DNA of 64,000 nucleotides from Salipiger abyssi. GTDB lineage: Bacteria > Pseudomonadota > Alphaproteobacteria > Rhodobacterales > Rhodobacteraceae. Numbering within the stretch: position 1 is the first letter of the stretch; the number at the start of each line of letters is the position of its first letter. Positions 18,038 through 44,934 of the stretch are shown one piece after another. The DNA is taken from contig NZ_JAEKIS010000003.1 of assembly GCF_017311415.1 (NCBI RefSeq), forward strand, positions 1 through 64,000, written 5' to 3'. A program made the position numbers and the translations under genes. Under the pieces are notes generated by a model that saw only the letters and a list, made by a program, of their open reading frames with translations, did no database searches and was not told the origin of the DNA.

Positions 18038-18064
18038 ATATATTCAAAACACAGAATTTTTGAA
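18038..18064 (-). promoter_or_regulatory. SqrR/BigR-type operator and promoter of the SulP gene
   Basis: ATTC-N8-GAAT occupies 18043-18058. Read on the minus strand, a -10 like TATATC (18038-18043) and a -35 like TTCAAA (18060-18065) flank it, so a bound repressor would block RNA polymerase. ATTC-N8-GAAT is the published operator of SqrR in Rhodobacter. The promoter elements are inferred by eye. Confidence 0.7.
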
Positions 18065-18191
18065 GGGGGGAATGTGCGATGCTCCAGAATGTCGCGGGAT
18101 TGAGGTGGAGGCCCCGGGTCGAGCCCGGGGCGGGGAGCTCTGAACAACCCACCCCGTACCTGTTCCGGGGCCTCGTGGCCGGGCAACCGCG

Positions 18192-19865
18192 TCAGCGCGC
18201 CGAGACCTTCTCCGGCTTGGCCATCCATTCCTTGCCGCGCAGCATCGCCTTCCAGTAGATCGGCGGCAGGATTTGCTCCTTCAGCAGCCAGGCGGCGCGG
18301 GTGGGCTTGGTGCCGTCGATGACCCATTTCGGGAAGCTGGGCAGCAGCGTGCCGCCATAGCCGAACTCCGCCAGCACGATCTTGCCGCGCTCCACCGTCA
18401 GCGGGCAGGAGCCATAGCCGTTATACATCGCGCGCGGGCTGGCGCCCTCGATATCGGCGGCGACGTTCTCGGCGACGATGGGCGCCTGCATCCGCGCGGC
18501 GGCGGCGGTCTTGGCGTTGGGCGCGTTCATCACGTCGCCGAGGCTCCAGATATTGTCATAGCTCTTGTGGCGCAGGGTGTTCTGGTCGACATCGACCCAG
18601 CCGGCGGCATCGGCGAGCGGCGAGACGCGGATGAAATCCGGCGCGGTCTGCGGCGGGCAGACATGCATCATGTCGAACTCCAGCTCGACCGTTTCCGGCT
18701 CTGTCTCGGGCTTGTTCACCGCGAAGGTGGCTTTCTTTGCCGGCCCGTCCACCGCGATGAGGTTGTGGAAGAAATTCAGCGTGGCGCCGTATTTCTTCAC
18801 GTATTGCTCCAGCGCCGGGACGTAATCCTTTACGCCGAAGAGCACGCCGCCCGCGTTCATGAACTGGATGTCGATATCGGGCAGCACGCCCTGGCGGAAC
18901 CAGTGATCGCCCGAGAGATACAAAGCTTTCTGCGGCGCGCCCGCGCATTTGATCGGCATCGGCGGCTGGGTGAAGAGCGCGCGCCCGGTCTTCAGCCCCT
19001 TCACCAGCTCCCAGGTATAAGGCGCGAGGTCATAGCGGTAATTCGAGGTCACGCCGTTCTTGCCCAGCGTCTCCACCAGCCCGTCGACCTTGCCCCAGTC
19101 GAGCTTCAGCCCCGGACAGACGATGAGACGGTCGTATTTCACCACCCGGCAGCCGTCGAGGATGACGGCGTTGTTGTTGGGCTCAAAGGCGGCGACCGCG
19201 GATTTGATCCAGTGCACGCCCTTGGGGATCAGGCTGCCCATGGTCTTGGCGGTGGTTTCCGGCTCGAAGATGCCGCCGCCCACCATGGTCCAGCCGGGCT
19301 GGTAGTAATGCACATCCGCCGGGTCGAGCAGCGCGATCTCCAGACTGGGCAGGCGCGCCTTGAGGCTGGCCGCAACGGCGATCCCCGCCGCGCCGCCGCC
19401 CACCACGACCACGTCAAAGCTGGCATCGCCGGTATCGGTGGGGGTCTTGCCGCCATTGACGATGCGGCGCACCACGCCGGCCATGTCGTAACCGGCATTC
19501 TTGGCGGCCATCAGGATTTCGGCGGTGGACATGGTTTTGGCCTGCGCCAGCGACCACAGCGTGGTCGAGCGCGTGCCGGTGCGGCAATAGGCAAAGACCG
19601 GGCCGGGCAGCTCGCGCAGGGCGCGACCGAAATCCTCGGCATCGCCATCCTGCACCTTGCCCGAGACCACTGGAAGATAGCGCGCCTCCAGCCCGTGTTG
19701 CCTGGCGGCGGCTTCGATCTCTTCAAAGCTCTGCTGGTCCGAGCCCTCGCCATCGGGCCGGTTGCAGATGATCGAGCGGTAGCCGGCAGCGGCAATCTCG
19801 GCCATGTCGTTTGTGGCGATCTGCGGTGAGACCGTGAGGTCGTCGTTGATTTTTCTGAATTCCAC
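18192..19865 (-). CDS. Phosphatase-like domain fused to sulfide:quinone oxidoreductase (type II)
   Basis: 557 residues in two domains. Residues 1-~140 are a protein-tyrosine-phosphatase-like/sulfurtransferase domain (the BLH type) with the loop CRTGTRS at 94-100. Residues ~148-557 are an FAD-dependent sulfide:quinone oxidoreductase: GGGAAG at 156-161, C307 in PIKCAGAPQK and C403 in MHVCPPQ. The last two match the redox disulfide pair of type II (SQOR-like) enzymes. It oxidises sulfide at the inner membrane, passing electrons to quinone; the fused domain may handle the persulfide product. Promoter with ATTC-N8-GAAT upstream. Confidence 0.92.
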   Translation of the reverse strand: MEFRKINDDLTVSPQIATNDMAEIAAAGYRSIICNRPDGEGSDQQSFEEIEAAARQHGLEARYLPVVSGKVQDGDAEDFGRALRELPGPVFAYCRTGTRSTTLWSLAQAKTMSTAEILMAAKNAGYDMAGVVRRIVNGGKTPTDTGDASFDVVVVGGGAAGIAVAASLKARLPSLEIALLDPADVHYYQPGWTMVGGGIFEPETTAKTMGSLIPKGVHWIKSAVAAFEPNNNAVILDGCRVVKYDRLIVCPGLKLDWGKVDGLVETLGKNGVTSNYRYDLAPYTWELVKGLKTGRALFTQPPMPIKCAGAPQKALYLSGDHWFRQGVLPDIDIQFMNAGGVLFGVKDYVPALEQYVKKYGATLNFFHNLIAVDGPAKKATFAVNKPETEPETVELEFDMMHVCPPQTAPDFIRVSPLADAAGWVDVDQNTLRHKSYDNIWSLGDVMNAPNAKTAAAARMQAPIVAENVAADIEGASPRAMYNGYGSCPLTVERGKIVLAEFGYGGTLLPSFPKWVIDGTKPTRAAWLLKEQILPPIYWKAMLRGKEWMAKPEKVSAR

Positions 19866-19902
19866 GGCGCGTCTCCTCCAGGGCGGGAATCGGGGTTGGG
19901 GC

Positions 19903-19932
19903 TTTATACATTCATGATGCAGAATTTGTCAC
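19903..19932 (-). promoter_or_regulatory. SqrR/BigR-type operator inside the SQR-fusion promoter
   Basis: On the minus strand GTGACA (19927-19932) and TATAAA (19903-19908) are separated by 18 bases and make a good sigma-70 promoter. The palindrome ATTC-N8-GAAT (19910-19925) fills the spacer. This is the classic repressor position and the sequence described for the persulfide sensor SqrR. It is 45 bases from the ATG. Confidence 0.78.
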
Positions 19933-20192
19933 GCGCCAGAGGGTCACAGCGGAATCGCTCGGAGCGGAGAGGATGGCCGAGGGTGCGGTCTGGACCCATC
20001 GTTCGACGCGGGCTTATCAACGTCCGACGGGAGCCCGTCCTTGCGAGGCTGCGCGAGCAACGAATGTCGGCTCCGGCGGTTGCAGCGTTTTTTCCCGTGT
20101 TGTCCTACGCCTGTGCGGAGGAGCCCCCTGAGAACCAACACGCACTCTTCGAAAACGCCGAACGATTTCACATGATCGTTCGCTGCGGGGCT
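19933..20192. other. Non-coding gap between the sulfide gene and the LysR gene
   Basis: No credible gene, tRNA or strong terminator was seen. Together with the SQR promoter it forms a 327-base gap that may hold the left boundary of the inserted LysR/DMT pair. Confidence 0.4.
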
Positions 20193-21056
20193 CTAAAGCG
20201 CGACCGCCCCGATCTTGTCCGCAACCGCCTGTGCCGCCCCTGTCGCCCCCACGGCGACGTCGAGCCAGAGGCTTCTTTGCAGTGGTGGGTCGAGCGGTCG
20301 AGAGACGAGGCCGTCCGCGCCGTCCAGAACGACTACGGAAGGCAGGATACTGATTCCGAGACTGGCGCGCACGGCTGCGAGCAAAGCGCGCGTGTCGCGG
20401 ATTCTCAGCACGACGTCCAATGCCGCGCCGGCCGCAGACATATGACACGAGATCGCATCTTCGCAGCCCGATGCCGACATCACGAACGAAAAGCGGGATA
20501 GATCAGAGGGCCCCAGCGCTCGGAGATGCGCGAGAGGATGATGTTCGGGCATCACGCCAACCAGTTCGACCTTCGTTAGAAGGCGCGCATTGGCGGACAG
20601 GTCTGCCATAGAGACGGCCACGTCGATGATTCCCTCGGAGAACCAGTTGGCGATCTCCGTATCGGTCCCTTCGATCACCTCCACCGTCACGGCCGGATGT
20701 TGACGGCGCAGGACTTCCAGGGCCCTCGGCACGACGGCGATCGCGGCGCTCGCGACCGAGCCCAAGCGAACATGCCCCGTCATTGCGAGATCGGGCCGCA
20801 TGTGTCCGATGGCATGGATATGCTCGAGAGCGCTTCGTGCCTCGCTCAGCACCGCCGCGCCGAGCGGCGTCATGACGACGCCACGTCCCCGGCGGATGGT
20901 GAGTGGACCGCCCATGAGGTCTTCCCAAGCCCGCATCGCATGGCTCACGCCCGACTGCGTCATCCCGAGCTTGTCTGCGGCGCGCGTGTGCCCCCCTTCA
21001 TCGGCAAGGGCGTCCAATACACGCAGCATCGTCAGATTGAGATGAAATCGGCTCAT
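20193..21056 (-). CDS. LysR-family transcriptional regulator
   Basis: 287 residues. An N-terminal winged helix-turn-helix (about 5-65, with HTRAADKLGMTQSGVSHAM) is followed by a periplasmic-binding-like effector domain. It is divergent from a DMT-family exporter 57 bases away, the usual layout in which the LysR protein controls the neighbour and itself. Base composition is less GC-skewed at third positions than the core genes around it, which suggests acquisition by transfer. Effector unknown. Confidence 0.92.
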   Translation of the reverse strand: MSRFHLNLTMLRVLDALADEGGHTRAADKLGMTQSGVSHAMRAWEDLMGGPLTIRRGRGVVMTPLGAAVLSEARSALEHIHAIGHMRPDLAMTGHVRLGSVASAAIAVVPRALEVLRRQHPAVTVEVIEGTDTEIANWFSEGIIDVAVSMADLSANARLLTKVELVGVMPEHHPLAHLRALGPSDLSRFSFVMSASGCEDAISCHMSAAGAALDVVLRIRDTRALLAAVRASLGISILPSVVVLDGADGLVSRPLDPPLQRSLWLDVAVGATGAAQAVADKIGAVAL

Positions 21057-21073
21057 GGAAAAAGATCATAACA

Positions 21074-21092
21074 ATCATTTCTCGCATGTGAT
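21074..21092. promoter_or_regulatory. Possible LysR operator in the divergent promoter
   Basis: An imperfect dyad ATCA-N11-TGAT lies midway between the divergent LysR and DMT genes, where a LysR-type site is expected. The arms are short, so this is tentative. Confidence 0.3.
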
Positions 21093-21113
21093 AGCGGTTG
21101 GTAGTATCGTGGT

Positions 21114-22070
21114 ATGACCACACCGCCCATCCGCCCCGCCCCCATCGCCTCCTCCCTGCCGGCCACAACGTCGCTCCGCTACCTACGGGGGGCCGCTTAC
21201 GGCGTCGCCGCCGTGTCGATCTGGGCAGGCTGGATGGCAATTACACGTATCGGTGTGACGACAACGCTCGATGCATGGGATATCGCGGCACTGCGCTTTG
21301 GGTTCGCGGGCCTCGTCCTGCTACCGGTCGTCTGGCACCGGGGCTGGGCGCTGGAACGTCTCGGCTGGCGGCGCCTCCTGCTATTGGTCGCGGGTGCGGG
21401 CGCGCCCTATGCGCTGATCGCTGCCCAGGGCCTACGCTTCGCACCCGCTGCGCATGCGGGTGCGCTGATTCCCGGTGTCATGCCGCTCTTCGTAGCTGCG
21501 CTCGCCGCAGTGTTCCTGGGCGAGCAGTTTACTGTAGCACGCAGGTTTGGGCTCACTTTCATCTTTGCGGGGCTCCTCACCATCGTAGGCGCGTCCCTCA
21601 TCGAAGGGCTGACGGCAGGCGGTCTCGCTCGTTCGGGCGGTCATGCGCTCTTCCTCGCTGCCGCATTTCTCTGGGCTTGTTTCACGGCAACAATGCGATG
21701 GGGCGGGATCGCGCCCCTCCACGCGACCGCCCTCGTTTCAGTTGGCTCGATGATCGGCTATGTACCATTCTATCTCTTGATCGCAGGCGATCGCCTCATC
21801 GAAGCGCCGCTCGCTGACATCGCCACGCAAGCGATTTACCAAGGCCTTCTCGCTACGGTGGTGTCCCTGACCCTATTCGGGCGCGCTGTCGCGATCTTGG
21901 GTGCGTCGAGCGGCGCGGCGTTTGGTGCGCTCGTGCCCGCAATGGCTGCGCTGCTGGCGATCCCCATGCTGGGCGAATTGCCGTCAGCATCCGACTGGGC
22001 GGGTATTGCGGCGATTACACTTGGCGTCTATCTCGCCAGCGGAGGACCGATACCCCGCCGGCAGCGATAG
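21114..22070 (+). CDS. DMT-family (EamA) transporter
   Basis: 318 residues with ten predicted membrane helices in two EamA repeats of about 140 residues. The first repeat contains AAVSIWAGWMAITR and ends with LSTLA-like packing; the second begins near residue 175. EamA proteins export amino acids, metabolites or drugs across the inner membrane. No clear ribosome binding site precedes the ATG. Paired with the divergent LysR regulator; composition suggests the pair was acquired together. Confidence 0.9.
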   Translation: MTTPPIRPAPIASSLPATTSLRYLRGAAYGVAAVSIWAGWMAITRIGVTTTLDAWDIAALRFGFAGLVLLPVVWHRGWALERLGWRRLLLLVAGAGAPYALIAAQGLRFAPAAHAGALIPGVMPLFVAALAAVFLGEQFTVARRFGLTFIFAGLLTIVGASLIEGLTAGGLARSGGHALFLAAAFLWACFTATMRWGGIAPLHATALVSVGSMIGYVPFYLLIAGDRLIEAPLADIATQAIYQGLLATVVSLTLFGRAVAILGASSGAAFGALVPAMAALLAIPMLGELPSASDWAGIAAITLGVYLASGGPIPRRQR

Positions 22071-22107
22071 GACGGGTGGGGTGAGCGGCAGCGGACGGAA
22101 CGGCTTT

Positions 22108-22140
22108 GCGAGCAGGCCCGACCAAATCGGGCCTGCTCGC
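22108..22140. repeat. 14-bp inverted repeat after the DMT gene
   Basis: A perfect stem GCGAGCAGGCCCGA / TCGGGCCTGCTCGC with a CCAAA loop, 38 bases beyond the DMT stop. No T-run follows, so it is a transcript-end hairpin or the edge of the inserted pair rather than a standard terminator. Confidence 0.6.
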
Positions 22141-22221
22141 CATCGCGGCGAAAACCTGCTGCGTCCCGATCTCCCCGCGCGCGCCTGACGACGCTCTTGT
22201 CGCGACCTCTGTCTTCAAAAC

Positions 22222-22250
22222 GAAAAACGCCGCCCCGAGGGGCGGCGCCG
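22222..22250 (-). terminator. Rho-independent terminator of the rplS-rpmE unit
   Basis: On the minus strand GCCGCCCC/GGGGCGGC with a two-base turn is followed by GTTTTTCG, 24 bases beyond the rpmE stop. Confidence 0.85.
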
Positions 22251-22273
22251 GTCTGCGAACGCAGGCGTCGGGA

Positions 22274-22495
22274 TCAGAAGCCCAGGCCTTCGTATTTCTT
22301 CTTGAACTTCGACACGCGGCCGCCGGTATCCATCAGGCGCGAGGAGCCGCCGGTCCAGGCCGGGTGCACCGAGGGGTCGATGTCGAGGGTCAGCGTGTCG
22401 CCCTCTTTGCCCCAGGTGGTGCGGGTCTGATACACGGTGCCGTCGGTCATCTTGACGTCGACGACGTGGTAATCGGGGTGGATGCCCTTTTTCAT
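22274..22495 (-). CDS. rpmE: 50S ribosomal protein L31
   Basis: 73 residues starting [19 protein letters not shown], the canonical bL31 opening. It lacks the four zinc cysteines, so it is the zinc-independent form usual in Alphaproteobacteria. It follows rplS by 11 bases and ends at a strong terminator. Confidence 0.97.
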
Positions 22496-22506
22496 GACGT
22501 CGCTCC

Positions 22507-22890
22507 TTATGCGTCGGCGCCGGCGAGCGGCTTGTAGTTGGTGTCCTCCGCGATCCGGGCCGATTTGCCGCGACGCGAGCGGAGATAGTAGAGCTTGGCG
22601 CGGCGGACGCGGCCGCGGCGCACGACGGTGATCGACTCGATATTGGTCGAGTAGAGCGGGAACACACGTTCCACGCCTTCACCGAAGGAAATCTTGCGGA
22701 CGGTGAACGAGCCGGCGATGCCCTTGCCGTTCTTGCGGCTGATGCAGACGCCTTCGTAGTTCTGCACACGCGAGCGCGTGCCTTCTGTCACCTTGTAGCC
22801 GACGCGAATGGTGTCGCCGGGCTTGAAATCGGGGATCTCTTTCCCCAGGGCGGCAATCTGTTCCGCCTCGAGCTGTGCGATCAGATCCAT
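22507..22890 (-). CDS. rplS: 50S ribosomal protein L19
   Basis: 127 residues from the ATG at 22890 ([17 protein letters not shown]), with GGAGAAGG upstream; the frame stays open further but that part is not conserved. bL19 lies at the 30S-50S interface. The core [16 protein letters not shown] and [12 protein letters not shown] segments are typical. In many bacteria rplS follows trmD directly; here a lipoprotein gene and a GNAT separate them. Confidence 0.97.
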
Positions 22891-23318
22891 CTGACCTTCT
22901 CCTTGGCTGCTCACGGTTGGACCCGTGAATATGTCTCGCGCCCCAGAGCTCCGCGTCTTCGGTCGGGTCCGCGCCGGCTGTTGCCGGGGCGCCCGCGGGA
23001 GGCTATCGACGTCTTTTCCGTATCTGTTATCCGGTCCGTCTGTGCCCCGTCGAAGATGCGGGGCAGACAATACCGGAAAGCCCGCTCGACTCAGGAGAGT
23101 CTGCGGACGGGCTGCGTATAGGCGCAGGTGGCCTGCCGATCAAGGAAAAAAGGGTGTGGAAGCGACGGGTGGCTGTGCTCGGCGGGACATTGCGGCTACT
23201 AGGTGTTCTGCTAGAATTCCGAGTTCGCCCTGCCATGTGGAGATCGGCGAAAGATCGGGTGAGTTTTTGCGGATGACGAACGCCGCCCCTCGGAAGGCAG
23301 CAAGAAGGAAACCATTTC
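22891..23318. other. Intergenic region with no recognised gene
   Basis: About 430 bases between divergent rplS and a lipoprotein gene. It presumably contains the rplS promoter and leader, but no confident promoter, tRNA or structured RNA was found by eye. Confidence 0.4.
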
Positions 23319-23903
23319 ATGACGTTCATGCGTGTCATCGTGACGATTGCTCTTGCCGTTCTGGCGGGTTGCGGCGTCAGTGGAGATTTTGAGACGGTAG
23401 GGCCCAAGGAGTTGCAGGCGGCCGTCGAAAGCGGGCGGATCAACCCCGCGACCCCGACACCGGGCAATCTGGCCCTTGCCGGTCATCGTATTGACCCGCA
23501 GGCACCGCGTCCGGGCTATACCGTCGCGACCGACAGCGTCGGCAATGGCATCCAGATCGAGTATTTTGCGCCCGATGGACGCAGCTATCTTTGGTACCCT
23601 GGGAATAGATCGGTCGTTCAGGCGCAGTACCGCTATGGTCTGGTTATTCCGCGTGATGGCAGCGCTGGCCGGATCGGGACGATTGAGTTCCTCTACCCCT
23701 CGAATTCCATCGACAGGACTGGCAGGAGAGGCGGCAAGTGGGAAGCGCGCGGGATTTCGGATTATCGCGTTTATGTCATGGCCTCGCGGAAAGGCGATAT
23801 TTTCAACCTCTCTTCGGGCGAGGTGCCTTATGTTCGGCGCGGCTGCGACCTGCCGAAGCCGATGATTGCTACCCCCCCAAACCGTGGTGTCTGTCGCCGC
23901 TGA
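23319..23903 (+). CDS. Hypothetical lipoprotein
   Basis: 194 residues. A short signal peptide ends in a lipobox LAGC with the cysteine at 18 and glycine-serine after it. The mature part is beta-rich with many Tyr, Gly and Arg residues and a motif GISDYRVYVMASRKGDIFNLSSGEVPY; no family was recognised. A ribosome binding site AAGGAAA precedes the ATG. Its codon use is less GC-biased than the ribosomal genes beside it. Probably anchored at the cell envelope. Confidence 0.75.
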   Translation: MTFMRVIVTIALAVLAGCGVSGDFETVGPKELQAAVESGRINPATPTPGNLALAGHRIDPQAPRPGYTVATDSVGNGIQIEYFAPDGRSYLWYPGNRSVVQAQYRYGLVIPRDGSAGRIGTIEFLYPSNSIDRTGRRGGKWEARGISDYRVYVMASRKGDIFNLSSGEVPYVRRGCDLPKPMIATPPNRGVCRR

Positions 23904-24043
23904 CCCCTGGATGCCCTTCATGGAATAGGATCCTCCAAAGTGGCGGACGGTATTCTAGACCGGCGGCGCAGCTTGCCGTTGACGAGCGCGGACGTCTCTC
24001 GCCGTGATCCCGAACACGTCCGATAGCGAACCGTGCCGTCAGC

Positions 24044-24502
24044 TCAGAGCGCCCGTTTGAACCCCACATGGCTCGCGGTAAAGCCGAGCCCCTCATAGAA
24101 CCGGTGCGCATCCTTGCGCGAGGCGTCCGAGGTGAGCTGGACCATGACGCAGCCGCGCCGGCGGCATTCCTCGACGGCCCAGCGGATCATCTGCCCGCCG
24201 AGCCCCAGCCCGCGTGCGGGGGCGGCGACGCGCACGGCTTCGATGGTGCCGCGCAGGGCGCCCTTGCGGGAGAGGCCGGGGGTGAAGGTCAATTGCAGCG
24301 TGCCGATCACCGCGCCGTCGCGTTCGGCCACCGCGAGGAGCTGGTTCGGGTCGGTGTCGATGGCGCGGAAGGCGGCGACATAGCTCTCGGCGAGCGGTTC
24401 GCTCAGGTCTTCGCGCGTGGCGCCGAGCGGATCGTCGGCCAGCATTGCCACGATGGCGGCCACATCGGCCTCGGTGGCGCGGCGCAGGACGATATCGCTC
24501 AT
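24044..24502 (-). CDS. GNAT-family N-acetyltransferase
   Basis: 152 residues. The acetyl-CoA binding motif A is visible as VRVAAPARGLGLGGQMIRWAVEE, then LTSDASRKDAHRFYEGLGF as motif B. Its ATG overlaps the stop of trmD by four bases (ATGA), so it is translated from the trmD message. Substrate unknown; single-domain GNATs like this acetylate amino acids, antibiotics or protein N-termini. Confidence 0.9.
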   Translation of the reverse strand: MSDIVLRRATEADVAAIVAMLADDPLGATREDLSEPLAESYVAAFRAIDTDPNQLLAVAERDGAVIGTLQLTFTPGLSRKGALRGTIEAVRVAAPARGLGLGGQMIRWAVEECRRRGCVMVQLTSDASRKDAHRFYEGLGFTASHVGFKRAL

Positions 24503-25302
24503 GTCTTGCCCCCCTTCGTCGCCTCATGCGCCGCCCATAGGTCCGGGCGGCGGGCGCGGGTGATCTCTTCAGCCTGGGCACGGCGCCATTTGGCGATCTC
24601 GCCATGGTGGCCCGACAGCAGCACCGGCGGGATCTCCAGCCCCTGCCACTCGGCGGGGCGAGTGTATTGCGGATGCTCCAGCAGCCCCTGGGAAAAGCTC
24701 TCCTCCTCGATGGACTCGGCATTGCCCAGCACGCCGGGCAGCAGCCGCACCGTGGCATCGAGCATCGCCTGCGCGGCGAGCTCGCCGCCGGTCAGCACGA
24801 AATCCCCGAGCGAGATCTCGGCGATTCCGTAGTGATCCAGCACCCGCTGGTCGAGCCCCTCGAAACGCCCGCAGATCAGCGTGACCCCGGGGGTGCGCGC
24901 AAGATCGCGCGCGACCGACTGGTCGAAGCGCCGCCCGCGCGGCGACAGGTAGAGAATTGGCGCGGCAGAAGAGATGCGGCGGCGGGCAAACTCCAGCGCG
25001 CGGCCCATCACGTCGGGGCGCAGCACCATGCCGGCGCCACCGCCGGCCGGCGTGTCGTCGACATTGCGGTGCTTGCCCTCGCCGAACTCGCGCAGCGGCA
25101 CCGTGTCGAGCTGCCAGAGCCCGTCCTGCAACGCCTTGCCGGTGAGCGACAAGCCCAGAACGCCGGGGAAGGCCTCGGGAAAGAGGGTGACGATCTGCGC
25201 GGTCCAGGCGCGCGCCAGCTCGGGCCGCTCGGTCATCAGCTCGCGCGGCTTCAGGCTGGGGCGGATGGCCTTGCGGCCATGGGATTTCGGTGCGTCGCTC
25301 AT
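24499..25302 (-). CDS. trmD: tRNA (guanine-N1)-methyltransferase
   Basis: 267 residues as drawn; an internal ATG at residue 23 (MTERPELARAW) could be the real start. It makes m1G37 in tRNAs, preventing +1 frameshifts. The SPOUT trefoil-knot regions LICGRFEGLDQRV and GDFVLTGGELAAQ are clear, and NVDDTPAGGGAGMVLRPDV is the substrate loop. It is followed with a four-base overlap by a GNAT gene and lies in the conserved rimM-trmD-rplS neighbourhood, here split by insertions. Confidence 0.96.
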   Translation of the reverse strand: MSDAPKSHGRKAIRPSLKPRELMTERPELARAWTAQIVTLFPEAFPGVLGLSLTGKALQDGLWQLDTVPLREFGEGKHRNVDDTPAGGGAGMVLRPDVMGRALEFARRRISSAAPILYLSPRGRRFDQSVARDLARTPGVTLICGRFEGLDQRVLDHYGIAEISLGDFVLTGGELAAQAMLDATVRLLPGVLGNAESIEEESFSQGLLEHPQYTRPAEWQGLEIPPVLLSGHHGEIAKWRRAQAEEITRARRPDLWAAHEATKGGKT

Positions 25303-25333
25303 GGCCTTCCTCTAGCCGCAAGGGCCGGGCGGC

Positions 25334-36008: not shown

Positions 36009-36010
36009 GG

Positions 36011-36056
36011 GCAAATTCCTTCGAAGGAATTTGCAAAAGTCTTCGAAGACTTTTGC
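36011..36056. repeat. Two abutting 24-bp perfect palindromes
   Basis: The first palindrome (36011-36034) and the second (36033-36056) share two bases, and both are centred on TTCGAA with GCAAA outer ends. They lie between the convergent DMT and ArsR genes and can fold as two hairpins in either transcript, so they may act as a bidirectional terminator. The matched design suggests a mobile repeat unit. Confidence 0.75.
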
Positions 36057-36059
36057 GGC

Positions 36060-36615: not shown

Positions 36616-36642
36616 CATCGCGGAACTCCTCTTGGGGGCAGA

Positions 36643-37765: not shown

Positions 37766-37842
37766 ATGAACGGCGGGCGCTCTGCCCGCCGGACAACCGC
37801 ACACCCCTATCGACCAACTTCCACACGTAAGGAGATTTCACC

Positions 37843-38067
37843 ATGGAAGGTCAACTCGCACATATCGGCGCAGGTCTCGCAGGTCTCGGCACGGGTCTCG
37901 CCGCTCTCGGTGTGGGCAACGTCGCCGCCAACTTCCTGTCGGGCGCTCTGCGCAACCCGTCGGCTGCCGCGTCGCAAACCGCGACCCTCTTCATCGGCAT
38001 CGCATTTGCCGAAGCTCTGGGCATCTTCTCCTTCCTCGTTGCTCTGCTGCTGATGTTCGCCGTCTGA
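37843..38067 (+). CDS. atpE: ATP synthase Fo subunit c
   Basis: 74 residues, two helices. The proton-carrying Glu57 is in [10 protein letters not shown] and the RNPS loop joins the helices. A GGAG ribosome binding site and a 77-base leader separate it from atpB. A hairpin follows in the gap before the b' gene. Confidence 0.97.
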
Positions 38068-38092
38068 TCGACGGAACGACTATCCTTACGCG

Positions 38093-38122
38093 CGGGCGGC
38101 GCCGTTACTGACGGGCCGCCCG
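38093..38122 (+). promoter_or_regulatory. Hairpin between atpE and the b' gene
   Basis: CGGGCGGC pairs with GCCGCCCG around a 14-base loop, 26 bases after the atpE stop and with no T-run. Intergenic hairpins here can protect the c-subunit message, needed in excess. The role is inferred. Confidence 0.45.
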
Positions 38123-38153
38123 ATGTAGAGACAACGTTCCGACGGAGGACGAC

Positions 38154-38705
38154 ATGGCGACAGAACCTATCGCCGAAGAACTGGCCGGCACCTGCGTCGA
38201 CTCCCATGGTTCCGCCATCGGGATGCCGCAGCTCTGCGCCGACTGGATCCCGAACCAGGTCTTTTGGCTGGTCATCGCGCTGGTGGTGGTCTTCCTCGTG
38301 CTGTCGCGCATCGCTCTGCCGCGGATCGCATCGGTCCTGGCCGAGCGCCGGGGCACCATCACGAACGACATCGCCGCCGCCGAAGAGCTGAAACGCCAGG
38401 CGGCCGAGGCGGAAAAAGCCTATGACAAGGCGCTGGCCGATGCCCGTGCCGAGGCACAGGCCATCAGTCAGAAAACCCGCGACGAGATCAAGGCGCAGCT
38501 CGACGAAGCGACCGCCGCAGCCGACGCGCAGATCGCCGCCAAGACGGCGGAATCCGAAAAGGCGATTGCCGAGATCCGGGCTTCGGCCATGGAGAATGTC
38601 GAGCTCGTCGCCAAGGACACCGCCGGGGCCATCGTGGCCGCGCTGGGTGGGTCCGCCGATGCGGCGACCGTCTCGGCAGCCGTCGGCAACCGGATGAAAG
38701 GGTGA
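38154..38705 (+). CDS. ATP synthase Fo subunit b'
   Basis: 183 residues with one N-terminal helix (~36-58, [18 protein letters not shown]) and a long charged coiled coil (70-170). Alphaproteobacterial and photosynthetic ATP synthases have two unlike b-type stalk subunits; this is the first (b', often atpF2 or atpG). It follows atpE and precedes atpF by four bases. Confidence 0.93.
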
Positions 38706-38709
38706 GCCC

Positions 38710-39273
38710 ATGCGCAAGCTGATCGTCACCAGCGCCCTGAGCGCCAGCCTCGCCAGCCCCGCGCTGGCGGCAACGGGCCCGTTCTTCTCGTTGCGCAACA
38801 CCGATTTCGTGGTGCTGCTCGGCTTCCTGCTCTTCGTTGCGGTGCTCGTCTACTTCAAGGTGCCCGGGCTGCTGGGCAAGCAGCTCGACAAGCGCGCCGA
38901 GGGCATCCGCGACGAGCTCGACGAGGCCCGCGCGCTGCGCGAAGAGGCCCAGACGCTGCTCGCCTCCTACGAGCGCAAGCAGCAGGAGGTCTCCGAGCAG
39001 GCGGCGCAGATCGTTGCGAACGCCAAGCAGGAGGCGGAGAACGCCGCCGCGCAGGCGCATGAGGAGCTCAAGGTCTCCATCGCCCGCCGGCTCGCCACCG
39101 CCGAGGACCAGATCGCCGCGGCGCAGGCCTCTGCCGTGAAAGAGGTGCGCGACCGTGCCGCCGCCGTGGCCGTGGCCGCCGCGCGCGACGTGATTGCGCA
39201 GCAGACCAGCGCCTCCGACAAGGATCGCCTGATCGACGAGTCTATCGCGGAAGTGGGCGCCAAGCTGCACTGA
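38710..39273 (+). CDS. atpF: ATP synthase Fo subunit b
   Basis: 187 residues. A membrane helix (~35-58, FVVLLGFLLFVAVLVYFKVP) follows a short hydrophobic N-terminus, then a coiled coil rich in Ala, Glu and Gln. Forms the peripheral stalk with b'. Last of the operon, followed by a strong terminator. Confidence 0.95.
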   Translation: MRKLIVTSALSASLASPALAATGPFFSLRNTDFVVLLGFLLFVAVLVYFKVPGLLGKQLDKRAEGIRDELDEARALREEAQTLLASYERKQQEVSEQAAQIVANAKQEAENAAAQAHEELKVSIARRLATAEDQIAAAQASAVKEVRDRAAAVAVAAARDVIAQQTSASDKDRLIDESIAEVGAKLH

Positions 39274-39294
39274 TCCCGGCACAAAGCGATTGCG

Positions 39295-39324
39295 AAAAGC
39301 CCGGCCCCTGCGGCCGGGCTTTTT
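39295..39324 (+). terminator. Terminator of the Fo operon
   Basis: AAAAGCCCGGCC / GGCCGGGCTTTT around a five-base loop, running into T's, 22 bases beyond atpF. Confidence 0.92.
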
Positions 39325-39461
39325 GGTTGCCGGGGGAACACGATTTGCCTGCGCATTGGCCGAACTTGGGGGCGTAAGCCTTTTCTTGCCGACGGCCCCC
39401 AGATACGGTAGCGGCAACGATACCACAGCGGAACATGTGGGTTTCAATTCAAGAGGACAGC

Positions 39462-40271
39462 GTGGCACATATCATCGTCGTCGGGAACGAGAAGGGCGGG
39501 GCGGGCAAATCCACCGTCTCGATGCATGTGGCAACCGCTCTGGCGCGCATGGGCCACCGGGTCGGTGCGCTGGATCTTGACCTGCGGCAGCGCACCATGG
39601 GGCGCTACTGCGACAATCGCCGCCGCTTTCTGGACGCCGAGGGCCTGTCGCTTCCCAGCCCGGTCTATATGGATCTGCCCGAGATCCAGCAGGACGCACT
39701 GGCGCCGGGCGAGAACGCCTATGATCACCGGCTGAGCAAGGCGGTCTCGGCGCTGGAGGCGAACTCGGATTTCATCCTGATCGACTGCCCGGGCTCTCAT
39801 ACCCGGTTGAGCCAAGTGGCGCATTCGCTCGCCGATACGCTGATCACGCCGCTGAACGACAGTTTCATCGATTTCGACCTGCTGGCGCGCATCGACAACG
39901 ATGGCGAAAAGATCCTCGGACCCTCGGTCTATTCCGAAATGGTCTGGAGCGCGCGGCAGCTCCGTGCGCAGGCGGGGCTGAAACCCATCGACTGGATCGT
40001 GCTGCGCAACCGCCTCGGCGCGCAGCAGATGATCAACAAGATGAAGATGGAAAAGGCGCTGGAGCGGCTCTCCAAGCGCATCGGCTTCCGCATCGCGCCG
40101 GGCTTTTCCGAGCGGGTGATCTTCCGGGAGCTGTTCCCGCGTGGGCTGACCCTGCTCGATCTCAAGGATATCGGGGTCAAGCAGCTCAATATCTCCAACG
40201 TCGCCGCGCGGCAGGAGCTGCGCGATCTCATGGTTGCGCTGGATCTGCCCGGGGTGACCGTTCGCTTCTGA
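39462..40271 (+). CDS. mipZ: MipZ-like division-site ATPase (ParA family)
   Basis: 269 residues from a GTG at 39462 with AGAGGAC eight bases upstream; an ATG nine codons earlier is a weaker choice. Deviant Walker A GNEKGGAGKS (8-17), DLDLRQRTMGRYCDNR and IDCPGSHTRLS place it in the MipZ/ParA group. In Alphaproteobacteria MipZ forms a bipolar gradient that positions FtsZ at midcell. Convergent with smc. Confidence 0.92.
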   Translation: MAHIIVVGNEKGGAGKSTVSMHVATALARMGHRVGALDLDLRQRTMGRYCDNRRRFLDAEGLSLPSPVYMDLPEIQQDALAPGENAYDHRLSKAVSALEANSDFILIDCPGSHTRLSQVAHSLADTLITPLNDSFIDFDLLARIDNDGEKILGPSVYSEMVWSARQLRAQAGLKPIDWIVLRNRLGAQQMINKMKMEKALERLSKRIGFRIAPGFSERVIFRELFPRGLTLLDLKDIGVKQLNISNVAARQELRDLMVALDLPGVTVRF

Positions 40272-40281
40272 ATATGACAAA

Positions 40282-40301
40282 GGCGGGCCCCGGGGCCCGC
40301 C
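40282..40301. terminator. 20-bp palindrome between mipZ and smc
   Basis: GGCGGGCCCC/GGGGCCCGCC, a perfect palindrome between convergent genes. No T-run on either side, so it may stabilise or weakly terminate both messages. Confidence 0.5.
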
Positions 40302-40325
40302 GCTACGCCGCGCCTGTCAGGGCGC

Positions 40326-43300
40326 TCAGGCGACCATCTTCTCCGCTTTCTTGAGATCGACCGAAACCAGCTGGGACACGCCCTGTTCCTGCATGGTCAC
40401 GCCGAACAGGCGGTCCATCCGCGCCATGGTCACCGCGTGGTGGGTGATGATCAGGAAGCGCGTCTCGGTGCGGCGGCACATCTCGTCGAGCAGATCGCAG
40501 AACCGCGTCACGTTGGCGTCGTCGAGCGGCGCGTCCACCTCGTCCAGCACACAGATCGGCGCCGGGTTCGCCAGGAACACCGCAAAGATCAGCGCCAGCG
40601 CGGTCAGCGTCTGTTCGCCGCCGGAGAGCAGCGACAGGGTCGAGAGCTTCTTGCCCGGCGGCTGGCACATGATCTCCAGCCCGGCCTCCAGCGGGTCGTC
40701 GCTTTCGACCATCACCAGATTGGCCTCGCCGCCATTGAAGAGATGGGTGAAGAGCATCGAGAAATTGCTGTTCACCTGCTCGAACGCGGTCAGCAGCCGC
40801 TCGCGCCCCTCGCGGTTGAGCGAGGCGATGCCGGAGCGCAGCGTCTTGATCGCCTCCTCCAGATCCTGCTTTTCCGAGATCAGCGTATCGTGCTCTTCCT
40901 GCACCTCGCGGGCGTCCTCCTCGGCGCGCAGGTTCACCGCGCCCAGCGAATCGCGCTGGCGTTTCAGCCGGTTGACCTCTGCCTCGATCTGCTCGGCGCC
41001 CTGCATCTCCTGAGCATTGGCGCCCAGCCGGTCGAGCAGCTTGGCCGGGGTGGTCTCCTGCTCTTCGAGAATGCGCTCGGCGGCGTAATCCACCGTCTCG
41101 CGCGCCGCCTCGACCCGGGCCTCGGCACGGGCACGCGCCTCGCGCGCCTCCGAGGCCGCGCGTTCCGCGTCACGCTCGGCGCCGATGGCCTCGCGCAGCG
41201 CACTCTCGGCCGTGGACAGCGCATCGGTGGCGCTGGCCTTGCGCGCCTCGGCCTGCGCGATGGCCTGGCTCAGCTCGTCGCGCTTCGCCGCCAGTTCGGC
41301 GGGGGCGGAAGACGCCTCCTTCAGCTCGGCCTCGGCGGCGCCCTTGCGCTCGGCCAGCTCGGCGCTGCGTTTCTCGGCGGTCTCCAGCCGGTGGCGCCAG
41401 CCCGACAGCTCCTTGGTGACCTGCTGCGCGCGCGACTTGCGGGCATCGCCCTCGCGGCGCAGCTCGTCATGGGCGGAGCGCTTGGCAATCATCGTCATCC
41501 GCGCCGCCTCGACGGTCAGCTTGATGTCCTCGACCTCGGCGCGGGCGCTTTCCAGATCGCCGAGCTCCGCCACCGCGCGCTCGGCCTCTGTGAGCTGCTT
41601 GCGCGCGCCGGTGGCCTCGTCCTCGTGGCGTTTCACCGCCATGGCGAGGCTCTCCAGCTTGCCCTCGGCCATGTTGCGGTCGGCCTCGGCGCGGTTCATT
41701 GCGCGGGTCGCCTCGTTCAGCCGCTGATCGGCCTCGCGCCGGGCCTCGCGCGCGGATTTGTCGGCCTGGGTCAGCTCCGCCAGCCGCGTCACAAGCGCCT
41801 CATGCGCGGCGCGCATGCCATCGACCTTGGCGGTGGCGGCGGCCATTTCCTGTTTCAGCGTTTCCAGCTTGTTGAGCTGTTCCAGACGCAGCGCGGCGGC
41901 GGAGGGCGCATCTTCGGCCCAGGCGCGATAGCCGTCCCAGCGCCAGAGATCGCCCTCGACACTCACCAGCCGCTGGCCCGGTTTCAGCTGCGGCTGGAGC
42001 CGCGGACCCTCATCCGCCTCCACCAGCCCGATCTGACCCATGCGCCGGACCAGAACGTCCGGCACCGAGACGTGATGGGTGAGCGCGGTGACGCCGGCGG
42101 GCAGCGGCTGATCGCTGGGGTAGGGGGGCAGCACCGCCCAGCCGGTGGGGCCGTCGGCCTCCACCTCGGGCGCGCGCAGGTCGTCGGCGAGCGCCGCGCC
42201 GAGCGCCTTTTCAAAGCCCTGCTCGACCTGAAGCCGGTCGAGGATCTGGCCGCCCTCCGCCGTGTCGCGGTCGAGCAGCCGGGCGAGTGCGGTGACCTCG
42301 GCGCGCAGCGCGTTGAACTCGCCTTCGGCCTCCGAGCGCTCCGCCCGCGCCTCGGCCTCGCGCGACTGCGCATCGGCGCGCGCGGCATCGGCATCGGTCA
42401 GCAGCTTGTCGGCACGCTCGGCCATCGCCTGCGCCTGATCGGTGCGGGTGCGTGCGGTCTCCATCGCCTCGGCGGCGCCGGAAAGGGTCTGCTTGGCCGC
42501 CGAGACGGCCTCGCGCGCCCGCGCTGCCTCGCCCTCGTGGCGGTCGAGCGTCTTGCGCGCATCGGCGAGGAAGCGGTGGGCCGACTGGTGGCGGGCGGCG
42601 AGCCGCGCCACATCCTCGGTGCGCTGCGACAGATCCGCCTCGCGCGCCTGAAGCATCGCCGCCGCCTCGCGTGCGGACTCGGAGGCCTCGGTCAGCCGGT
42701 CGTCATGGCCCTCGCCGGCCTTTGCCAGCTCGCGCGCTTCCCAGTCGAGCCGCTCGATGGTCTCGCCCGCGTCGCGGTTGAGCCCGGCCTCGCGCTCCAT
42801 GTCCTTGGACATCTGCTCGATGCGGCGGGTCAGGGCGGCGATGGTCTCCGCCGCGCGCGTTTCTTGATCGGTGAGCGTGTCGCGCTGCACCGAGAGCCGT
42901 TGCAGGATCGCCGTGGCGATGCTCTCCTCCTCGCGCAGCGGCGGCAGCGCCTCTTCTCTCTGCGCACGTAGGGTCGCGGCGGCGCGCGCCGCACCCTCGG
43001 CCTGGGCGGCGGCGGTGACCTTTTCGCGGTGCCCGGCCTCGGCCTGCACGCGCGCCTCGTCTGCCTCCTTCCAGCGGCGGAACAGCAGCAGCCCCTCGGC
43101 GCGGCGCAGATCCTCGCCGATCGCCTTGTAGCGCGCCGCCTGCTTCGCCTGCCGTTCGAGCTGCGCGAGCTGGGCCGCGAGCTGCTCGATCACGTCGTCG
43201 ACGCGCAGCAGGTTGGCGTCGGTCGCGTTCAGCTTCAGCTCGGCCTCGTGGCGGCGCTGGTAGAGCCCCGAGATGCCGGCGGCCTCTTCGAGAATGCGGC

Positions 43301-43814
43301 GGCGGTTCTTGGGCTTGGCGTTGATCAGCTCCGAGATCTGCCCCTGCCGCACCAGTGCCGGCGAATGCGCCCCGGTCGAGGCGTCGGCAAAGAGCATCTG
43401 AATGTCGCGCGCGCGCACATCCTTACTGTTGGCCTTGTAGGCCGAGCCCACGTCGCGGGTGATGCGCCGCACGATGTCGAGCTGGTCGCTGTCGTTGAAC
43501 CCGGCGGGGGCCAGCCGGTCGGAATTGTCGATGCTGAGGCTGACCTCGGCGAAATTCCGGGCCGGACGCGAGGCAGCGCCGGCGAAGATCACGTCTTCCA
43601 TGCCCGAGCCGCGCATCGCCTTGGCGCGGTTCTCGCCCATCACCCAGCGCAGCGCTTCCAGCAGGTTGGACTTGCCGCAGCCATTCGGCCCCACGACACC
43701 GGTCAGACCCTCGGCGATGACGAGGTCCGTCGGGTCGACGAAGCTCTTGAAGCCCGTCAGTCTGAGACGTGAAAAACGCAAATCTGCCTGCCCTGATTCC
43801 GGTTTGCCCACCAC
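40326..43814 (-). CDS. smc: Chromosome segregation protein SMC
   Basis: 1162 residues. Walker A GPNGCGKSN at 42-50 in the N-terminal head, two long coiled coils separated by a hinge (about 500-660, with VLPPYPSDQPLPAG), and the C-terminal head with signature LSGGEQTLTALAL and Walker B ICVLDEVDAPLDDAN. It organises and segregates the chromosome with ScpAB. Its stop-end faces mipZ, so two chromosome/division genes are convergent. Confidence 0.97.
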   Translation of the reverse strand: MVGKPESGQADLRFSRLRLTGFKSFVDPTDLVIAEGLTGVVGPNGCGKSNLLEALRWVMGENRAKAMRGSGMEDVIFAGAASRPARNFAEVSLSIDNSDRLAPAGFNDSDQLDIVRRITRDVGSAYKANSKDVRARDIQMLFADASTGAHSPALVRQGQISELINAKPKNRRRILEEAAGISGLYQRRHEAELKLNATDANLLRVDDVIEQLAAQLAQLERQAKQAARYKAIGEDLRRAEGLLLFRRWKEADEARVQAEAGHREKVTAAAQAEGAARAAATLRAQREEALPPLREEESIATAILQRLSVQRDTLTDQETRAAETIAALTRRIEQMSKDMEREAGLNRDAGETIERLDWEARELAKAGEGHDDRLTEASESAREAAAMLQAREADLSQRTEDVARLAARHQSAHRFLADARKTLDRHEGEAARAREAVSAAKQTLSGAAEAMETARTRTDQAQAMAERADKLLTDADAARADAQSREAEARAERSEAEGEFNALRAEVTALARLLDRDTAEGGQILDRLQVEQGFEKALGAALADDLRAPEVEADGPTGWAVLPPYPSDQPLPAGVTALTHHVSVPDVLVRRMGQIGLVEADEGPRLQPQLKPGQRLVSVEGDLWRWDGYRAWAEDAPSAAALRLEQLNKLETLKQEMAAATAKVDGMRAAHEALVTRLAELTQADKSAREARREADQRLNEATRAMNRAEADRNMAEGKLESLAMAVKRHEDEATGARKQLTEAERAVAELGDLESARAEVEDIKLTVEAARMTMIAKRSAHDELRREGDARKSRAQQVTKELSGWRHRLETAEKRSAELAERKGAAEAELKEASSAPAELAAKRDELSQAIAQAEARKASATDALSTAESALREAIGAERDAERAASEAREARARAEARVEAARETVDYAAERILEEQETTPAKLLDRLGANAQEMQGAEQIEAEVNRLKRQRDSLGAVNLRAEEDAREVQEEHDTLISEKQDLEEAIKTLRSGIASLNREGRERLLTAFEQVNSNFSMLFTHLFNGGEANLVMVESDDPLEAGLEIMCQPPGKKLSTLSLLSGGEQTLTALALIFAVFLANPAPICVLDEVDAPLDDANVTRFCDLLDEMCRRTETRFLIITHHAVTMARMDRLFGVTMQEQGVSQLVSVDLKKAEKMVA

Positions 43815-43970
43815 TGTGCCGGTCGGCGCCCGGGTGAGTCAAACGCTTTGCTCTGGATATCGCGGTGAAGCGGCTATTATCCACAAGATATTGCGGAATT
43901 TCGCGCAACGTGCTGACTTGACGGAACGTCTGTTAGCGCGTTTCATCTCAAGGCTAGCCAGGAGCTGCCC

Positions 43971-44429
43971 ATGCCGCTTGCCATTCACCCCGTCTCGCCC
44001 CGCGATCCGCGCGCCGTGGCGCTTTTGTCCGAAAGCCATGCGCTGATGAACGCGCTCTTTCCGGCGGAGGAGAACCATTATCTCGATGTCGATGAGCTTT
44101 GCGCCGAGGGCATCACCTTCTTCGGGGCCGAGGAGGGGGGCGAGCTTTTGGGGTGTGCGGCGCTGGCGCGGCGCGAGGGCTATGGCGAGGTGAAATCCAT
44201 GTTCGTGGCGCCCGAGGCGCGGGGCATCGGCGTGGCGCGCCGGCTGCTGGCGCATCTGGAGCGCACCGCTCAGGAAGAGGCGCTGCCGCTGCTGCGGCTG
44301 GAGACCGGCGACAGGCTCGCCGCCGCAGTGTCGCTCTACGAAGGGCAGGGCTATCGCCGTTGCGGGCCGTTCGGCGGCTATGTCGCCAACGGGTCGAGCG
44401 TGTTCTACGAAAAGCCGGTTCAGGCATAG
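43971..44429 (+). CDS. GNAT-family N-acetyltransferase
   Basis: 152 residues. CoA-binding motif SMFVAPEARGIGVARRLLAHLER and ETGDRLAAAVSLYEGQGYRR are clear. Divergent from smc; unlike the ffh array it is a stand-alone PhnO/RimI-like single domain. Substrate unknown. Confidence 0.9.
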   Translation: MPLAIHPVSPRDPRAVALLSESHALMNALFPAEENHYLDVDELCAEGITFFGAEEGGELLGCAALARREGYGEVKSMFVAPEARGIGVARRLLAHLERTAQEEALPLLRLETGDRLAAAVSLYEGQGYRRCGPFGGYVANGSSVFYEKPVQA

Positions 44430-44439
44430 CCGCCCCCGC

Positions 44440-44838
44440 TCAGTATTCCGTACATTCCATCGAGGCGCTGCCGCCCAGTCGGTCGGTATAATAGGCGTCG
44501 AAGATCTCGCAGGAGATCGTGCGGCGGCGCGGCTGTCTCGGTGCCGGCGCCCCGTCGCAGGACAGCCCCATCACCATCATCGCCGGATCGCCGGTGACCC
44601 AGGCCGGCACGCAGCCGGTTTCCTGTGCGACGGCCAGTTGCGCGCGTTCGGATATCGGGCCGAAGCGGGCGGGGAATTCCGGGCTGGTGCGGATCACCTC
44701 GGCCACGCGGTCCTTTACCCGGATGGTGAAGCGCGAGCCCTCGACCTCGCGCGTCACGGCTGGCACGCCGCGAAAGCCCGGGCCTGCCATGTCGCAGCCC
44801 ACCAGAAGAAGAACACCCAAGATCGCCCCGCGTCGCAT
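44440..44838 (-). CDS. Hypothetical lipoprotein
   Basis: 132 residues. Signal peptide with lipobox LVGC (Cys15). The mature part has three more cysteines (ETGCVPAW, LSCDGA, ISCEIF, and one near the end), suggesting disulfides in the periplasm. No family recognised. Convergent with the GNAT gene. Confidence 0.7.
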   Translation of the reverse strand: MRRGAILGVLLLVGCDMAGPGFRGVPAVTREVEGSRFTIRVKDRVAEVIRTSPEFPARFGPISERAQLAVAQETGCVPAWVTGDPAMMVMGLSCDGAPAPRQPRRRTISCEIFDAYYTDRLGGSASMECTEY

Positions 44839-44906
44839 CGCCTCAGAAAGCCCGATGAGGGTTAAGACGCAGTTAACCGCGACGCGGGACAGGCTGTCGC
44901 AGGGAA

Positions 44907-44934
44907 TTTACATTCTGATTTTAGAATGTAATTT
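44907..44934 (+). promoter_or_regulatory. SqrR/BigR-type operator and promoter of the ten-helix gene
   Basis: The palindrome TTACATTC-N8-GAATGTAA (44908-44931) contains ATTC-N8-GAAT at 44912-44927. A -35 like TTTACA (44907-44912) and a -10 like TAATTT (44929-44934) lie 16 bases apart around it, the same layout as at the SQR fusion gene. It is 37 bases before the ATG. Confidence 0.75.

Follow-up and report, generated by a model that had tools for sequence, protein, structure and literature searches.

A predicted SqrR-type persulfide regulon linking a SulP transporter, a sulfide:quinone oxidoreductase fusion and a TsoY-family membrane protein

Judging from its sequence, the window (the whole stretch of 64,000 nucleotides of Salipiger abyssi DNA that was analysed) encodes a SulP transporter, a sulfide:quinone oxidoreductase (SQR) fusion and a TsoY-family membrane protein that are very likely under shared control, as members of one persulfide-responsive regulon (probability about 0.9). 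Our confidence in the full explanation, a single SqrR-type persulfide regulon including the mechanism proposed below, is only slightly lower. The original prediction of such a regulon is supported by the position and conservation of the operators, by their matrix ranks and by the presence of two two-cysteine ArsR regulators. It had also given ATTC-N8-GAAT as the SqrR operator, which an excerpt of PMC9774250 confirms in print.

Predicted operators and promoters in the window

The features discussed are as follows.

16204-17976, minus strand: SulP-family anion transporter with STAS domain, 590 aa (TIGR00815, 454.8 bits, cut-off 380.45; PF00916, PF01740)
18037-18064, minus strand: putative SulP promoter, by eye; -35-like TTCAAA (18064-18059), 16-nt spacer, -10-like TATATC (18042-18037)
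18042-18057, no strand: predicted SqrR-type SulP operator, ATTCAAAACACAGAAT; exact match, 65 nt 5' of SulP
18192-19865, minus strand: sulfur transferase/SQR fusion (TIGR01244 + SQR), 557 aa (TIGR01244, 135.4 bits, above cut-off; PF04273)
19905-19932, minus strand: putative SQR promoter, by eye; -35-like GTGACA (19932-19927), 16-nt spacer, -10-like TGTATA (19910-19905)
19910-19925, no strand: predicted SqrR-type SQR-fusion operator, ATTCATGATGCAGAAT; exact match, 44 nt 5' of the SQR fusion
44907-44934, plus strand: putative TsoY promoter, by eye; -35-like TTTACA (44907-44912), 16-nt spacer, -10-like TAATTT (44929-44934)
44912-44927, no strand: predicted SqrR-type TsoY operator, ATTCTGATTTTAGAAT; exact match, 40 nt 5' of the TsoY gene
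44968-46179, plus strand: TsoY-family ten-helix membrane protein, 403 aa (NF047644, 513.4 bits, cut-off 150; CPxV motif)

SulP family membership follows from a TIGR00815 score above the cut-off together with the STAS domain, while the SQR fusion scored 197.6 bits against the type III SQR model NF049943, under its cut-off of 525.

The window contains four exact matches to ATTC-N8-GAAT, at 18042-18057, 19910-19925, 36015-36030 and 44912-44927, against a mean of 0.69 after shuffling; since 1 of 100 dinucleotide shuffles also reached four, the excess in the window alone is modest. The three sites originally proposed are all real, those at 19910-19925 and 44912-44927 exactly as placed, and the SulP site lies at 18042-18057 rather than 18043-18058. 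The TsoY operator is nested in a 24-bp palindrome (44908-44931) with perfect arms TTACATTC/GAATGTAA. The fourth match had not appeared in the original prediction; we rejected it as an operator because it belongs to a longer, terminator-like palindrome, GGCAAATTCCTTCGAAGGAATTTGC, that lies between convergent genes, 6 nt past a stop codon.

At SulP, SQR and TsoY alike, the 16-nt spacer between the -35-like and -10-like boxes, as assigned by eye, is approximately filled by the operator. The proposal that each site sits between plausible promoter boxes stands for the boxes placed by eye and for SulP, where 14 sites, the window's own included, have the common frame CTTnACAaATTC-N8-GAATATATa, which supports the overlap of operator and promoter; it fails in a strict sigma-70 consensus scan, which found no promoter at any of the three operators. 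In relatives, distal tandem sites at TsoY read cTTTACATTC..GAATGTAtata.

Conservation of the operator

An exact site was present within 150 nt upstream of TsoY in 74 of 80 loci from relatives (the best 80 of 375 relatives found, skewed to close ones) and missing from the other 6. At these loci the arms occurred at no spacing of 3-6 or 9-13, once at spacing 7 and eight times at spacing 14. The site was also found at 12 of the 1137 other gene starts of the same loci, in every case at a divergent gene that uses TsoY's promoter region.

In best-30 samples, exact sites lay within 250 nt upstream of TsoY in 25/30 loci, SulP in 14/30 and the SQR fusion in 9/30, and within 200 nt upstream of a rhodanese gene in 23/30 and of YeeE in 13/22, so that the upstream distance differs between these counts and that of the 80 TsoY loci. 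As a negative control, the regulator's own gene had an exact site within 200 nt upstream in 0/30 loci and a single-mismatch site in one, and autoregulation was rejected on this basis. The 30-locus samples are best hits rather than random draws, include the S. abyssi genome and have genomes in common with the 80 TsoY loci; because the loci are kin and the samples overlap, the site counts are not independent.

Conservation is also incomplete. The SQR-SulP pair is kept without an exact site in many relatives, and TsoY lacks one in 5 of the first 30 loci (a one-mismatch site in G064 and G047, no site in G108, G132 and G101), in 4 of 9 further genomes of the family (G030, G127, G016 and G175) and in three genomes of other families. 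In the examined stretches of two other-family genomes, G383 and G208, no operator was found even with one mismatch allowed; in G352, also from another family, 18 kb contain a single exact site, some 5 kb away from TsoY, where the gene caller gave no genes.

Across the S. abyssi genome, ATTC-N8-GAAT has 49 exact matches, 19 of them terminator-like palindromes. The two controls for this count disagree, since scaling up the window shuffles predicts about 56 matches, leaving no clear excess, and the pattern read backwards yields 1. We therefore rejected raw motif counting as evidence. As to whether the motif is commoner upstream of genes, the raw count gives no clear excess, and position and conservation are decisive. 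When the 49 sites were scored with a matrix built from relatives only (81 sites in total, no gene family contributing more than 25, with the eight core bases excluded from the score), the TsoY site scored highest, and the TsoY, rhodanese, SulP, SQR and two YeeE sites took ranks 1 to 6; the matrix is AT-rich and therefore favours AT-rich sites by itself.

The predicted targets include sulfide-oxidation genes, with exact sites at the SQR fusion and rhodanese and a one-mismatch site at the persulfide dioxygenase gene (C3:80595). Weaker sites, at a metallo-hydrolase/kynureninase pair (1.4) and a second metallo-hydrolase-like gene (4.6), are not claimed given their low matrix scores, nor are those near hemA, an AhpD-like gene, rpoD and others, which scored low or negative. 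Genes were called with a home-made codon score rather than a standard caller, and cydA, cydB, a small exported protein (C10), half YeeE proteins (C26) and some hemA-like neighbours were named by eye.

Candidate regulators

The two-cysteine ArsR sensor that the prediction calls for is encoded twice, by C3:160469 and C16:78675. Both proteins carry both sensing cysteines, aligned to 6o8k/6o8l, and their closest solved structures are ArsR chains 6o8k-6o8o (database label "ArsR family"), which we take to be SqrR. Both cysteines are present in 30/30 best relatives of the C3:160469 regulator, itself counted. Neither protein reached the 155-bit cut-off of the BigR equivalog NF040642 (C3 regulator, 106-107 bits; C16 regulator, 92.7). 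An SqrR-type regulator occurs in 56/56 genomes with TsoY compared to 113/143 others (p 1.9e-5), as counted by hand from listings that give a regulator match for 169 genomes, all 56 TsoY genomes included, and do not name ten matchless genomes.

With two such regulators in one genome, the shared operator could instead be that of the second, a SoxR-like protein beside sox genes, and the regulon one of thiosulfate or sulfane sulfur (Sox) rather than sulfide. The two are about equally close to SqrR (121 bits to the best solved chain for the sox-side regulator, 115 for the other), TsoY operators persist where the best regulator match is of a less similar type, and, according to an excerpt of PMC12423496, the two paralogues of Hyphomicrobium bind the same probes. 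In contrast, a C3-type regulator was found in 16/18 genomes with an exact SQR or SulP site but in 13/31 without one (p 0.0012; types scored by hand at about 130 bits or more, a threshold set after viewing the list, with one-mismatch sites in 5 of the 31), and the sox-cluster site scores only 4.6 with the matrix, compared to 13.6-23.2 for SQR, SulP, rhodanese and TsoY. On balance, we consider control by the sox-side regulator unlikely.

Gene company, transport and known systems

The gene company of TsoY and SulP provides support for the shared regulon that is independent of the motif. Of the 30 best SQR-fusion genomes, 27 have SulP immediately after the SQR fusion, as read by hand (exceptions G125, G039 and G188), and a second SQR adjoins or is near TsoY in several genomes. 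In G383, from another family of the same phylum, genes for SLAC1, TsoY, an octaheme cytochrome, cytochrome b, a dioxygenase, the SQR fusion, SulP, a rhodanese, a 71-aa protein and cydA lie in this order on one strand, no gap between them exceeding 203 bp. A true SLAC1 gene, which adjoins TsoY in G383, lies two genes away from an SQR in S. abyssi.

The TsoY (seleno)protein family of NCBIfam is uncharacterised. The S. abyssi protein scored 55.9 bits against the selenoprotein TsoY model NF047643, under its cut-off of 250, and has Cys rather than Sec in a CPAV motif. This single invariant Cys336 (CPxV) is kept in 30/30, 46/46 and 6/6 cases and probably matches the selenocysteine of selenoprotein relatives; no selenoprotein TsoY above cut-off was found in 398 genomes of the phylum, so the equivalence rests on the UxxV motif tabulated in PMC13188914. 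Among the matches listed in a literature search, that selenoprotein table was the only item on TsoY, and no paper in the literature searched mentions both SqrR and SulP.

The structure model of TsoY has ten long helices, and its 21 best Foldseek hits were all SLAC1, SLAH or TehA (probability 1.00, yet E 0.0055-0.12, none at or below 0.001; TM 0.41-0.56 by query). The description "SLAC1/TehA-like" probably applies to the fold, but not to the sequence: there was no Pfam PF03595 hit, no PDB sequence hit and an hhalign probability of 1.4% against SLAC1, so that no homology was found at the sequence level.

SqrR is known to respond to persulfide by forming a sulfur bridge between two cysteines, upon which it releases DNA. 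By analogy, we propose that a reduced SqrR-type repressor would bind ATTC-N8-GAAT between the -35 and -10 boxes of the SQR fusion, SulP and TsoY, as well as at the rhodanese and a YeeE/YedE-like gene, and possibly at the one-mismatch site of the dioxygenase and the weaker site of the sox cluster. Sulfide would give rise to persulfide, the repressor's cysteines would become sulfur-bridged, and its departure from DNA would allow all targets to be made together. The SQR fusion would then oxidise H2S and hand on sulfane sulfur, the dioxygenase would make sulfite, and SulP and TsoY would transport the anions so formed through the membrane, with export as the most likely direction.

That both transporters export sulfur oxyanions is a tentative proposal, with odds a little short of even. 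The reverse, in which SulP imports sulfate or a charge-balancing anion and TsoY imports sulfur compounds, as YeeE does thiosulfate, appears less probable. The same operator stands at a YeeE/YedE-like gene, and YeeE-family importers are among the published targets of such ArsR proteins (excerpt of PMC12423496), but the genes that accompany SulP and TsoY are oxidative (SQR, dioxygenase, octaheme cytochrome, bd oxidase) and the bigR operon, as described in an excerpt of PMC5823870, combines a dioxygenase with a sulfite exporter. More speculative still is the idea of TsoY as a channel for sulfane sulfur or sulfur oxyanions, with a SLAC1-like fold, in which Cys336, in the ninth helix, reacts with transported or gating persulfide, making it both persulfide-induced and persulfide-gated. 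Finally, that the three palindromes are chance matches in AT-rich promoters is scarcely credible: the genome count is close to the scaled shuffle expectation, but the dependence on spacing is strict, the site is conserved over 80 loci, and 1125 of the 1137 other gene starts are site-free, the remaining 12 using TsoY's promoter region.

In roseobacters, a shared SqrR-type regulon would give both a SulP transporter and TsoY, an orphan (seleno)protein family, a place in sulfide detoxification; conservation of the operator and the gene company are separate lines of evidence for it. TsoY, a family of no known job, would thereby gain a testable role in toxic-sulfur handling, and with candidate regulators and one key cysteine named, the disposal of sulfide-oxidation products by these marine bacteria becomes directly testable.

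Several known systems resemble this arrangement in part. TsoY, as modelled, probably resembles SLAC1/TehA anion channels (PF03595) in its ten-helix fold, but differs in having no detectable sequence match to them and in its invariant CPxV cysteine. Hyphomicrobium denitrificans likewise has two paralogous sulfane-sulfur repressors, SoxR and sHdrR, with sulfur transporters among their targets, but the excerpts of PMC12423496 and PMC10451225 that describe it centre on thiosulfate oxidation (sox and shdr genes). The bigR operon of Xylella and Agrobacterium, as excerpted from PMC5823870, similarly combines a sulfide-sensing ArsR, a DUF442-type sulfur transferase, an ETHE1-type dioxygenase and a transporter; there the transporter is TauE-related and serves sulfite, whereas here SulP and TsoY take the transporter's place, SQR rather than a dioxygenase is the fusion partner of the transferase, the genes are scattered and the regulator gene is site-free (0/30). 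The SqrR regulon of Rhodobacter capsulatus shares the two-cysteine ArsR, the ATTC-N8-GAAT operator and SQR and a rhodanese as targets (excerpt of PMC9995734), and the present regulon differs from it in that a TIGR01244-SQR fusion, SulP and TsoY bear the site.

Operator matches in the window and the whole genome

PMC9774250 gives ATTC-N8-GAAT as the deduced SqrR site. The original prediction had assigned the SulP, SQR fusion and TsoY genes to a single persulfide regulon from three such palindromes, all of which are real, the SulP site lying one base to the left of the position first reported.

Exact ATTC-N8-GAAT matches in the window
18042-18057, SulP
19910-19925, SQR fusion
36015-36030, terminator-like, between convergent genes, inside GGCAAATTCCTTCGAAGGAATTTGC
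44912-44927, TsoY

These four matches compare with a shuffle mean of 0.69, and at least four were obtained in 1 of 100 shuffles, so that the excess within the window is modest. Our scan of the organism's own genome (5.2 Mb, 75 contigs, with gene calls from a home-made codon-score caller) recovered 49 palindromic places, compared to 1 for a control with the pattern reversed. The expectation from window shuffles scaled to the whole genome is approximately 56, and there is thus no clear genome-wide excess in the raw count, although the reversed-pattern control points the other way.

At 19 of the 49 places, the palindrome carries the flanks CAAATTC..GAATTTG and lies 6-41 nt past a stop codon. These palindromes are terminator-like; they comprise window 36015-36030 and 18 others (L001, L005-L007, L009, L010, L021, L023, L024, L027, L029, L031, L034, L037-L039, L042 and L045). 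The repeated palindrome is mostly GCAAATTCCTTNNAAGGAATTTGC, with copies nearly identical across the genome. The remaining 30 places are intergenic (20), within called genes (9) or without any called gene (1). Promoter sites precede, among others, SulP, the SQR fusion, TsoY, a rhodanese (C2:219544) and the sox cluster (C16:76816), and the gene of a YeeE/YedE-like Sulf_transp protein has a pair of them separated by 25 bp (C6:87539 and 87564). For persulfide dioxygenase, the best gene (C3:80595) carries a one-mismatch site, ACATTCGTATTTTCGAACATT, 52 nt upstream.

When a matrix trained on relatives alone was applied to the 49 own-genome sites, the highest scores were those of TsoY (23.2), rhodanese (14.8), SulP (14.0), SQR (13.6) and YeeE (8.9 and 7.5). 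Below these, the sox and L003 sites scored 4.6 each and one further site 1.4. All remaining sites scored negative, including every terminator-like one.

Operator conservation and gene company in relatives

An exact site is found no more than 150 nt upstream of TsoY in 74 of 80 relatives (L155-L234), and 36 of the 80 loci carry two exact sites 23-25 bp apart. In these tandem pairs the distal copy occupies a promoter-like frame and the proximal copy lies downstream of it; the single exact site of the window TsoY is at the distal position. The SulP loci share the frame CTTnACAaATTC-N8-GAATATATa, which places the operator in a 16-nt spacer, and the frame of the distal TsoY site is similar. Varying the spacing at TsoY loci gave no exact matches at 3-6 and 9-13, 1 at 7 and 8 at 14, the last eight being put down to the tandem sites. 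Only 12 of 1137 other gene starts in these loci have a site, all 12 belonging to a divergent neighbour with which TsoY shares its promoter region.

Among the best family loci for each gene, own genome included, exact sites were present for TsoY (25/30), rhodanese (23/30), SulP (14/30), YeeE (13/22) and the SQR fusion (9/30), and in 0/30 for the regulator's own gene. Nine further family genomes with TsoY had the operator in 5 and lacked it in 4.

Gene order provides evidence independent of the motif. Of the 30 best SQR-fusion genomes, 27 have SulP immediately after the fusion, as read by hand, and in several genomes that lack the fusion SulP comes after a lone TIGR01244-like match. A type III-like SQR directly adjoins TsoY in G132 and G016, and is near it in G030, G036, G101, G127 and the Loktanella locus L194. 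An exact TsoY operator is present in G036 and L194 and absent from the other five, so that among these seven loci (L194, L235-L240) TsoY often lacks the operator, as if its position had taken over the task of linking it to sulfide oxidation.

In G383, a genome from another family of the phylum, one strand carries in order SLAC1, TsoY, an octaheme tetrathionate-reductase-family cytochrome, cytochrome b561, a dioxygenase (403 bits to the Blh model, over its dioxygenase portion), the SQR fusion, SulP, rhodanese, a 71-aa protein and cytochrome bd subunit I. The successive gaps of 92, 51, 1, 203, 10, -4, -17, 161 and -4 bp indicate one or more operons. The octaheme cytochrome following TsoY lies at 7093-9873 of L241, the G383 locus.

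Own-genome contig C10 harbors a second sulfide unit (L352, C10:55000-68000, at 4461-10773) of cydA-like, cydB-like, SQR, a 117-aa protein, SLAC1 (PF03595) and a small exported protein, the cyd genes and exported protein being named by eye; it contains no exact operator. In another stretch (L354, C26:8000-18000, at 3813-6056), a persulfide dioxygenase gene is followed by those for two YeeE-like proteins of half size, identified by eye, and for a lone TIGR01244-type protein; no operator turned up there even when one mismatch was allowed.

Candidate regulators

A search for a two-Cys ArsR sensor gene in the own genome found two.

ArsR candidates
C3:160469, 96 aa
C16:78675, 115 aa, adjoining sox genes and a YeeE-family protein

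Their best matches, at 1.4e-32 and 2.1e-34, are chains 13ct/6o8l and 6o8k, and each protein aligns to them at both cysteines. We take these entries to be R. capsulatus SqrR, the database output giving the ArsR family only. An SqrR-type regulator (E up to 1e-15) was detected in 169 of the 199 genomes of the family: in 56/56 with TsoY compared to 113/143 without it (p 1.9e-5). In a post hoc comparison scored by hand, the C3-type regulator was present in 16/18 genomes with an exact SQR or SulP site compared to 13/31 without one.

Evidence beyond the reach of the original prediction supports one regulon for SulP, the SQR fusion and TsoY, presumably under an SqrR-type ArsR protein and with a predicted response to sulfide. 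According to PMC9995734, sqr and a rhodanese gene are under SqrR control, and SqrR loses DNA binding upon persulfidation. The bigR operon includes a TauE-related sulfite transporter (PMC5823870), and SoxR and sHdrR are treated in PMC12423496 and PMC10451225. We found no open-access paper naming both SqrR and SulP, and the tables of the primary SqrR paper could include SulP or TsoY; other statements of absence from print concern open-access literature, among the matches listed or from loose term sets.

The TsoY protein

TsoY matches NCBIfam TsoY_fam with 513 bits and the selenoprotein model with 55.9 bits. Cys336, which lies in CPAV and is the protein's sole cysteine, is conserved without exception in 30/30, 46/46 and 6/6 relatives, the last set including proteins of 36-40% identity. 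UxxV is the motif given for selenoprotein TsoY in a table of PMC13188914, and we infer that its U is the counterpart of Cys336.

A structure model built from 46 sequences (pLDDT 85.5, pTM 0.86) has ten long helices, with Cys336 in the ninth (329-354). The earlier description of TsoY as SLAC1/TehA-like may hold for the fold: sequence methods detected no relation to SLAC1/TehA, but the 21 best Foldseek matches of the model in the PDB were all SLAC1, SLAH or TehA (probability 1.00, with E between 0.0055 and 0.12 and thus never as low as 0.001). In SLAC1 and TehA, the pore is presumably lined by the odd-numbered helices.
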